A stretch of 39,952 bases of DNA from a virus: the IMG/VR virus record IMGVR_UViG_3300031772_000100, positions 1-39,952 of that record; one strand, given 5' to 3'. The translations under genes and the position numbers were made by a program. The notes under the pieces were generated by a model, which worked only from the letters and a program-made list of their open reading frames with translations, searched no databases and was not told where the DNA came from. Positions 1,018-2,576 of the stretch are shown here, piece after piece. Every line of letters begins with the position of its first letter. Within the stretch, counting starts at the first letter, position 1.

Positions 1018-1209
1018 CTATTCAGGCGTCACTAATACTTTCGGGTTATCGGCTTTTACGGCCCGCTGTACCAAGTACCCGTCCTTCGCATACACCGTGA
1101 ACGTCTCACCGCAGTTCACACAGCGCACGCGGATGCGCTGCACCCACTCGGCCGACATGCGCAGCACGCGCCGGCACTTGCGGTTCGGACAGACAACGCG
1201 GATTGTCAC
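1018..1209 (-). CDS. Small zinc-ribbon protein
   Basis: 63 residues from a GTG start at 1207-1209 that overlaps the methyltransferase stop (GTGA), with a GGGGGTGA ribosome-binding site. The motif CPNRKC followed about 25 residues later by CVNCG forms a four-cysteine zinc ribbon. A longer start at 1296 is possible but would overlap the methyltransferase by 90 bases and has no ribosome-binding site. The stop TAG lies inside the ribosome-binding region of the next gene. Its function is unknown; such ribbons often bind nucleic acid or protein partners. Confidence 0.75.
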   Translation of the reverse strand: MTIRVVCPNRKCRRVLRMSAEWVQRIRVRCVNCGETFTVYAKDGYLVQRAVKADNPKVLVTPE

Positions 1210-2004
1210 TTCGTCACCCCCTGAATAGTCAGCGCCTCCAACAGCCGCCGACCGAGCCATTCTGTGATCTGTGGTACGACGGCATTTCCGAGACATCGCA
1301 GTCTGTCCACCCTGCCGGGAACCCCATTAGCCACTCGACCCACGTCGGGTTCAACTGACCAGAAATGACGTTCTTGCCGTGCGATTGGAGGCCATCCCAA
1401 CGGTTGGCAGTCGGAGTCGGATAATGGCCCGCCTCTGCTAGTTTCACTGCGTAGGGCAGAGACGGACTGCCGCTGGCAAAATACTTCGGTGCCTTGTTGC
1501 CGTCTGTCGCGTTGGGCGTGGGCCACAATGAACACGCGGTCTCGCCTATGTGGTGCACCAAACGCGGACGCCGGTAACACCTGCCATTCTGCATCATACC
1601 CGCCGCGGGCCAGGTCTCGGAGTATTCCTCCAAAGAGCCGTCCATTCTCTGCTGACAATAGCCCTCTGACGTTTTCTGCCACGATCCATCGGGGCTTAAG
1701 CTCGCAAACGATCCGGTAGAATTCCGACCACAACCATCGCTCATCATTTCCCCCCTGCCGTTTGCCAGCACTGCTGATTGGCTGGCACGGAAAACCACCA
1801 CATATCAGGTCAACCCACTCAAGGTTACTCCCTCCGCAATCTCGCACGTCGCGGTATCGGGGCACATCGGGCCATCGTCTTCCAAGCAACCGTCTCGCCG
1901 CGTCGTCAATTTCCACCTGCCATTTGCACTGCATACCGGCCCGCTGGAAGCCGAGGTCGAAAACCACCGATACCCGCAAACAGCGAACCAAAGGTCAAAG
2001 GCAT
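1206..2004 (-). CDS. DNA (cytosine-5) methyltransferase, disrupted by one base near the N-terminus
   Basis: C5 methyltransferases transfer a methyl group from S-adenosylmethionine to cytosine. The true start is ATG at 2002-2004 after GGGAGGTGA, giving MPLTFGSLFAGIGGF, the canonical motif I. At the run AAAA (1960-1963; TTTT on the coding strand) one extra base moves the frame by +1. The rest is intact: GGFPCQP with catalytic Cys about residue 73, ENV at about 110, HRRDRVF at about 153-158, and RCLGNAVVPQ near 236. Start to stop is 799 bases, 265 codons plus stop plus one base, a normal length for a compact phage enzyme. The downstream frame alone lacks motif I and would be inactive. The break may be an assembly error, a real mutation or programmed +1 slippage (UUU before CGA). 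Confidence 0.85.
1229..1801 (-). CDS. Overlapping +1-frame ORF inside the C5 methyltransferase
   Basis: A 190-codon ORF lies wholly inside the methyltransferase gene, same strand, shifted +1. Its product is not random-looking: it holds SLEEYSETWPAAGMM, LWPTPNATDG and LNPTWVEWLMGFPAGWTD, in the order seen in a group of phage proteins often listed as methyltransferase-related. WLMGFPAGWTD is read from the same bases as ANGVPGRVDRL of the methyltransferase, and SEMPSY from those of LGNAVVP. Either this is a truly dual-coding region, or database proteins of this type are wrong-frame readings of the same conserved DNA. The first ATG has no good ribosome-binding site. Treat as a candidate only. Confidence 0.3.
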   Translation of the reverse strand: MVVFRASQSAVLANGRGEMMSDGCGRNSTGSFASLSPDGSWQKTSEGYCQQRMDGSLEEYSETWPAAGMMQNGRCYRRPRLVHHIGETACSLWPTPNATDGNKAPKYFASGSPSLPYAVKLAEAGHYPTPTANRWDGLQSHGKNVISGQLNPTWVEWLMGFPAGWTDCDVSEMPSYHRSQNGSVGGCWRR

Positions 2005-2052: not shown

Positions 2053-2364
2053 TCATCTCAGCGCCCTCTCGATCACGCCCATCGCCTCGCCGGACTCGAC
2101 CATCGCGGTCGTGAAGTGCAGGACGCGCCAACCCTGGATCGCTGCCTCGTTGTACTTGACGCAGTCCTTGGAATAACCCTCGCCTCGCGTATGCCTGCCC
2201 TGCGTCCACACTGCACCCGAGACCTCAATCGCCAGTTTGTGACTGGGATAGGCTGCATCAAAACGCCAGCGTCGCGTCTTGTGAAAGCGAAACTCAAGGT
2301 TCGGCTCCGGTAGCCCGAGCGCCTTGATCTGGAATAGCAGCAGGTCGTGGGCGGGGCTGGTCAC
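2053..2364 (-). CDS. PD-(D/E)XK-like phage endonuclease domain protein
   Basis: 103 residues from a GTG at 2362-2364 that overlaps the previous stop (GTGA). The core pattern is RRWRFDAAYP, then AIEVSG about ten residues on, then a Gly/Arg-rich loop and GWRVLHFT. This matches small phage nucleases of the DUF559/VRR-NUC style fold, where the Asp and the Glu would bind metal; the expected Lys after the Glu is a Ser here, so the active site is unusual or displaced. These proteins are often encoded beside recombination or DNA-modification genes. It sits between a cysteine-rich small gene and the methyltransferase. Family assignment is by eye. Confidence 0.65.
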   Translation of the reverse strand: MTSPAHDLLLFQIKALGLPEPNLEFRFHKTRRWRFDAAYPSHKLAIEVSGAVWTQGRHTRGEGYSKDCVKYNEAAIQGWRVLHFTTAMVESGEAMGVIERALR

Positions 2365-2576
2365 TGCAGCGCCATCTTCACGCACTTGGCGCAGAAGGGG
2401 TCAGACCATCGGTGCGGCGGCCAGGAATCGGTACGGCAGCATCTATAACCGCAGAAGGCCGGGCCATCTATTCGGAGCCGCACATGCACATTCCAGCATC
2501 CTACTGGTCGCGCAACAATCAACTCTGTGCGTTGTTTCAATGCTGTTACCTGCTCACGTGTCAATCGTATTGCCAT
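2361..2576 (-). CDS. Small cysteine-rich protein
   Basis: 71 residues, ATG at 2574-2576 after a strong GGGAGGTGG. It contains a short N-terminal helix and CW, CGYRCC and CAKC clusters near the C-terminus, consistent with a zinc-binding site. It is coupled to the downstream nuclease by a GTGA overlap and follows the membrane peptide at 2578-2682 with one base between. No family recognised. Confidence 0.6.
   Translation of the reverse strand: MAIRLTREQVTALKQRTELIVARPVGCWNVHVRLRIDGPAFCGYRCCRTDSWPPHRWSDPFCAKCVKMALQ

Follow-up and report, generated by a model that had tools for sequence, protein, structure and literature searches.

Can the bases of a phage C5 methyltransferase gene also encode a second selected protein? 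In a viral DNA sequence of 39,952 bases (here, the window), the bases of such a gene give two recognizable protein readings. A preliminary description of the window offered two explanations: real overprinting or a wrong-frame artifact of methyltransferase genes. We refer to the methyltransferase frame as alpha and to the nested +1 frame as beta (Table 1). The identification of the main frame as a C5 methyltransferase was borne out by a profile match of alpha 1206-1991 to PF00145 (E = 9.5e-45), and the same segment matched phrog_363 (E = 9.8e-73). This open reading frame, 1206..1991(-), encodes 261 aa and holds both VANGVPGRVDRL and LGNAVVPQ. The match between M.HhaI and the main frame reached motif VIII and went no further. 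All three +1 peptides quoted earlier (SLEEYSETWPAAGMM, LWPTPNATDG, and LNPTWVEWLMGFPAGWTD) are present in the open reading frame 1229..1801(-), at an offset of +1 relative to the methyltransferase frame.

Table 1. Positions of the alpha and beta frames and of their sequence features in the window
Feature	Position	Strand	Remark
Alpha, C5-cytosine methyltransferase frame	1206..2004	(-)	Open part 1206-1991; start ATG 2004 out of frame
GGTTTTCGACC, one extra T; alpha frameshift immediately past motif I (FAGIGGF)	1955..1965	(-)	
Alpha motif IV, GGFPCQPIS, catalytic Cys	1773..1799	(-)	
Alpha motif VIII, GAPHRRDRVFIV	1524..1559	(-)	M.HhaI homology ends here
Alpha-frame shadow of motif IX, VEPDVGRVANGVPGRVDRL	1299..1355	(-)	Alpha dN/dS 0.7-2.0 here
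Alpha motif X, LGNAVVPQ	1269..1292	(-)	
Beta, nested open reading frame, 190 aa from GTG 1801	1229..1801	(-)	+1 to alpha; phrog_1008, E = 6.6e-32
AGGGGGG-AA-ATGATG, Shine-Dalgarno-like run and tandem starts, proposed for beta	1742..1756	(-)	
Beta SLEEYSETWPAAGMMQNG, overprinted on alpha motifs VI-VIII	1583..1636	(-)	
Beta first PTP unit, LWPTPNATDG, variable (putative target recognition) region	1499..1528	(-)	
Beta second PTP unit, YPTPTANRWDG	1391..1423	(-)	
Beta motif IX, LNPTWVEWLMGFPAGWTD	1301..1354	(-)	hhalign to single-chain McProf, E = 2.3e-11; dN/dS 0.09-0.18

The main-frame methyltransferase is broken in the window. A single extra T at 1955-1965 puts the ATG at 2004, with MPLTFGSLFAGIGGF, and motif I out of register with the remainder of the methyltransferase frame. 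The window copy may therefore be inactive or dead, or it may be misassembled; the extra T could mark a dead gene, a site of +1 ribosomal shifting, or an error of assembly. Beta is intact although alpha is frameshifted. The 190-aa open frame at 1229-1801 is as previously described, but judging from the sequence, translation more likely begins at ATG 1747 or 1744 than at GTG 1801. The AGGGGGG run ahead of these two codons gave duplex energies of -8.8 and -10.2 kcal/mol. Directly upstream of the methyltransferase lies a small gene, 2053-2385(-), matching phrog_503 (E = 7e-34), a family of unknown function; its sequence is reminiscent of Vsr-like or DUF559-like nucleases.

To gauge the +1 frame against codon bias, we shuffled synonymous codons within each gene, which alters neither the encoded methyltransferase nor its codon usage. 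In the window gene, the longest +1 run was 190 codons compared to 88 expected (P = 0.004), with 1 stop in this frame compared to 6.6 expected. The first set of homologous loci was found via the +1 product and is hence biased; two further sets were found via the main-frame protein only. Across the 150 methyltransferases chosen by main frame, the +1 frame was open two to three times longer than in the permutations, and 92 to 97% of loci were significant at P < 0.05. Retrieval with a methyltransferase alignment gave 76 loci with a mean longest +1 run of 228 codons (103 expected; 92% at P < 0.05). Retrieval with the Acinetobacter phage ABMM1 methyltransferase gave 74 loci with a mean of 291 codons (124 expected; 97% at P < 0.05) and a total of 89 stops in the +1 frame compared to 454 expected. 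There was no effect in the +2 frame of the same loci (3 to 4% at P < 0.05), and neighboring genes reached this threshold in 9% of cases (n = 177). Stops in the +1 frame of homologues, proposed earlier as evidence against overprinting, were almost absent.

In the ABMM1-like group, the +1 frame was open across the entire gene of approximately 300 codons. Genes in this group start with ATG AAT GAG, and the +1 ATG therefore sits 4 nt behind the methyltransferase ATG. Genes with an MNE start used AAT and GAG in 69 out of 69 cases, whereas elsewhere in the genes the ratio of AAT to AAC was 292:417 and that of GAG to GAA was 349:745 (P = 2e-25 for the AAT preference). We also scanned IMG/VR with a 23-nt start pattern in an AAC and an AAT version. 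The AAT version had at least 120 matches, compared to a single contig (L252), not a methyltransferase, for the AAC version. A conserved beta ATG 4 nt after the alpha ATG, with beta spanning the whole gene, was seen in the L172-L251 group.

Next to open frames, we looked at selection in close pairs of relatives (85 to 99.5% DNA identity). Substitution rates were divided into site classes in which the first letter gives the effect on the methyltransferase and the second that on the +1 product (dNN, 0.044; dNS, 0.153; dSN, 0.117; dSS, 0.416). The reduced synonymous variation in the main frame that the preliminary description had proposed to look for was thus present (dSN versus dSS). Pooled pairs share sequences, and the resulting dN/dS values, 0.28 to 0.29 for the +1 product and 0.37 to 0.38 for the methyltransferase, are therefore not independent. 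Overall, beta dN/dS ranged from 0.28 to 0.41 in close relatives, indicating purifying selection on the +1 product. We then redistributed the observed changes over equivalent sites within each gene. Methyltransferase-silent changes that create a +1 stop were observed 0 times compared to 28 expected, and methyltransferase-changing substitutions were skewed toward +1-silent ones (z = -12; z of approximately 0 in the +2 control). Ahead of the +1 open reading frame, over the first 40 codons of alpha, loci of the window's group showed no constraint. The share of loci with a +1 stop fell from 55% to 0 to 1% across the beta boundary and held for approximately 360 nt, so that the onset of constraint coincides with that of the beta open reading frame. 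A generic cause is made unlikely by the controls for codon usage, the +2 frame, and the pre-beta stretch. Chance and codon bias were rejected as explanations by the codon permutation, the +2 and neighboring-gene controls, and the substitution permutation. The existence of two readings from the same bases is confirmed, with chance and a wrong-frame artifact excluded, and the overprinting alternative is the one supported by both the permutations and beta dN/dS.

The two frames are not constrained in the same regions. In the ABMM1-like group, alpha/beta dN/dS was 0.14/0.40 over motifs I to VIII, 0.99/0.31 in the variable region, and 2.04/0.09 in the motif IX segment; the corresponding values in the window's group were 0.12/0.53, 0.88/0.31, and 0.69/0.18. 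Alpha is therefore near neutral in just those regions where beta is conserved; past motif VIII, beta takes over the constraint from alpha. Two main-frame motifs had been reported as conserved. LGNAVVPQ is indeed motif X, but VANGVPxRVDRL (VANGVPGRVDRL in the window) is mostly a shadow of beta motif IX, as alpha dN/dS there is 0.7 to 2.0.

What, then, is beta? Its best-conserved stretch, LNPxWVEWLMGFPxGWTD, is motif IX, which is absent from the main frame. Mycobacterium phage McProf gp6 and Gordonia phage Phinally gp5 are single-chain enzymes in which motif VIII is followed by PTP units, LNPRFAEWMMGWP and LNAAFAEWMMMLP, respectively, and then motif X. Beta profiles aligned to the McProf C terminus with hhalign E values of 2.3e-11 and 4.5e-11. 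The window beta matched phrog_1008 ("DNA methyltransferase"; 329 positions), and this family matched the single-chain C termini of McProf (E = 1e-49) and Phinally (E = 5e-60) as well as ArV1 067b (E = 2e-74) and Diva gp50 (E = 1e-73). In Arthrobacter phage ArV1 (067a/067b) and Mycobacterium phage Catdawg (gp6/gp5), the main frame ends just past motif VIII, and a second gene in +1 carries PTP units and motif IX and continues into motif X; ArV1 067b was matched by 572 phage records. From the matches to these single-chain C termini and split forms, the C-terminal half of beta is the variable region plus motif IX. Its N-terminal half, over the motifs up to VIII, has no single-chain counterpart and is the truly overprinted part, with some +1 similarity over motifs VI to VIII also present in single-chain enzymes. 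The +1 product had been described as a pattern from separate phage proteins; these are probably the same product annotated elsewhere (phrog_1008, Diva gp50, Catdawg gp5, and ArV1 067b). Overlooked in that description was that the +1 product looks like the methyltransferase's own variable region and motif IX, and the locus therefore resembles a single enzyme divided between two frames, not a pair of unrelated proteins. Other searches were less informative. An hhalign comparison of beta with Escherichia coli Dcm landed on motif IX of Dcm without being significant (probability, 0.3%; E = 0.2). Beta alone had no match in Pfam or NCBIfam, and PDB sequence searches with it returned nothing of note. 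AlphaFold models of beta alone had low confidence (pLDDT of 54 and 62) and matched no fold, and Foldseek with the window beta model returned nothing useful; as low pLDDT might be expected of an obligate subunit, structure adds nothing here. In two loci, PTP units lie partly in +1 though motif IX is in the main frame (L381 843-2399 in Gordonia phage Phinally and L382 531-2090 in Streptomyces phage Raleigh), as if repeat units had moved between the frames.

The system is spread over phages and many bacterial phyla. A search with the +1 product, suggested earlier as a check of overlap with methyltransferase genes, placed nearly all matches under such genes. An alpha match was present in 80 out of 80 beta-selected IMG/VR loci, and beta was in +1 to alpha in 80 out of 80 beta-selected bacterial and (a few) archaeal loci, many of which are probably prophages; beta without alpha occurred in neither set. 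At Lachnospiraceae loci and some others, the segments are not superposed, and WEPDIPRVxxGVxxRVxRLKALGNAVVPQQ follows 95 to 140 nt after motif IX. We infer that the overlap was resolved there or never formed. In L426, L447, and L448, alpha stops after motif VIII, and the beta frame has motif IX and then a nonoverlapping motif X segment; these loci are natural "unfolded" versions of the nested gene.

At this locus, overlapping frames very likely encode the two polypeptides of a single C5-cytosine DNA methyltransferase; the two would be translated separately and assemble into the active enzyme. Alpha (frame 0) would supply the catalytic core, motifs I to VIII, together with motif X. Beta (+1, nested in alpha) would supply the overprinted N-terminal part, the PTP-rich variable region, where the target recognition domain is expected to belong, and motif IX. 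Both would be translated from one mRNA: in the window type, beta would have its own internal start, and in the Acinetobacter/Pseudomonas phage type, it would start at the ATG 4 nt behind the alpha ATG (ATGAATGAG). The two products may then assemble and methylate DNA in the manner of M.EcoHK31I.

The gene for the large subunit of M.EcoHK31I contains that of the 176-aa small subunit in another frame. There are established cases of naturally split C5 methyltransferases; the large polypeptide of M.EcoHK31I has motifs I to VIII and X and the predicted recognition domain, and the small one has motif IX only, whereas the two subunits of M.AquI have complementary motif sets, with motifs IX and X on the small one (PMC3404938). 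As in M.EcoHK31I (YGGCCR), the large polypeptide of the window's relatives has motifs I to VIII and X (motif I of the window being split off by the frameshift), and motif IX is only on the small polypeptide (E = 2.3e-11 to McProf; alpha unconstrained). In contrast to M.EcoHK31I, for which the recognition domain is published in the large polypeptide, the variable region is here constrained in beta (0.31) and not in alpha (0.88 to 0.99). Further differences are that one group here overlaps over the whole gene of approximately 300 codons with starts 4 nt apart and that the system is found in phages and many bacterial phyla. The window system thus appears to work like M.EcoHK31I, but we do not file it as a member, since the comparison was made with the published description and selection here does not agree with where the recognition domain is placed in the literature. 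The M.AquI-type split, with motifs IX and X on the second gene, is seen in ArV1, Catdawg, L426, L447, and L448. It differs from the window and from most loci, where alpha itself carries motif X and beta lies inside alpha instead of following it.

Alternatively, programmed ribosomal frameshifting from frame 0 of alpha into +1 could make beta the C-terminal extension of one chain rather than a separate polypeptide. The existence of single-chain relatives, the +1 overlap of the split forms, and a shifty GGTTTTCG in the window alpha would fit, but we consider frameshifting improbable. A conserved ATG 4 nt after that of alpha and a whole-gene span of beta, as in L172-L251, are unneeded for a fusion, and in the window, a strong Shine-Dalgarno sequence precedes the internal start of beta. 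Moreover, among 257 deduplicated loci with motif IX located in +1 and motif X found downstream, motif X was kept in alpha's own frame in 252 and was in the beta frame in 5. Still less probable is an overprinted beta that serves some unrelated function (e.g., antidefense or regulation) and is tied to the gene by origin alone. The N-terminal half of beta, which lacks a single-chain counterpart yet is selected (dN/dS of 0.40 over motifs I to VIII), would suit such a protein; the homology of its C-terminal half to the single-chain variable region and motif IX, the lack of a constrained motif IX in alpha, and the constant company of alpha in the beta-selected sets speak against it. Hardly any credence is left for a +1 frame that is open and similar across phages merely through methyltransferase amino acids and codon bias: the location of nearly all +1 matches under methyltransferase genes and the partial +1 similarity of single-chain enzymes over motifs VI to VIII would agree with it, but the open reading frame is lost when codons are permuted with protein and codon usage held constant, the effect is missing from the +2 frame, neighboring genes, and the first 40 alpha codons, beta has the dN/dS of a selected protein, ATG-AAT-GAG is invariant, and single-chain homologues carry beta's motif IX in frame.

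Both readings are kept by selection in hundreds of phages and bacteria, and usually one of them is annotated. A methyltransferase made of alpha and beta would probably represent an overlooked and very large dual-coded class in phages, bacteria, and possibly archaea, with the recognition half read in +1 from the bases of the catalytic half and, in one group, an overlap of the whole gene with starts only 4 nt apart. Target specificity would then evolve in beta, with alpha drifting neutrally over the same bases. If so, many "DNA cytosine methyltransferase" genes are half-annotated, a recoded alpha gene would yield an inactive enzyme on expression, and predictions of methylation specificity use the wrong frame. 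The hundreds of loci also make up a natural, replicated data set on overprinting of unusual size, in which the selective burden of each frame can be read along the gene and single-chain, split, and nested forms still coexist. The question of the preliminary description is answered for the small phage family phrog_1008: it is real and no artifact, and its name conceals that the family comprises no more than the motif IX half, which a methyltransferase gene encodes in a second frame.

Our literature search found no description of nested phage methyltransferase subunits and no account of Diva gp50. In the phage records inspected, usually alpha alone was annotated (e.g., L002-L004 and L007-L011). 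In Vibrio phage 1.236 (L377 1501-2199), the beta-frame gene is listed alone, with no annotation for the methyltransferase frame that shares its bases. Both genes are annotated in Paenibacillus phages Diva and Jacopo; Diva gp50, nested in +1 inside a DNA-cytosine methyltransferase, carries the note "g49 internal gene" and is recorded as a hypothetical protein. In Mycobacterium phage Ochi17 (L006 2133-2892), a frameshift splits alpha into two annotated "DNA methyltransferase" genes, and the same paired annotation was seen in several related phages.
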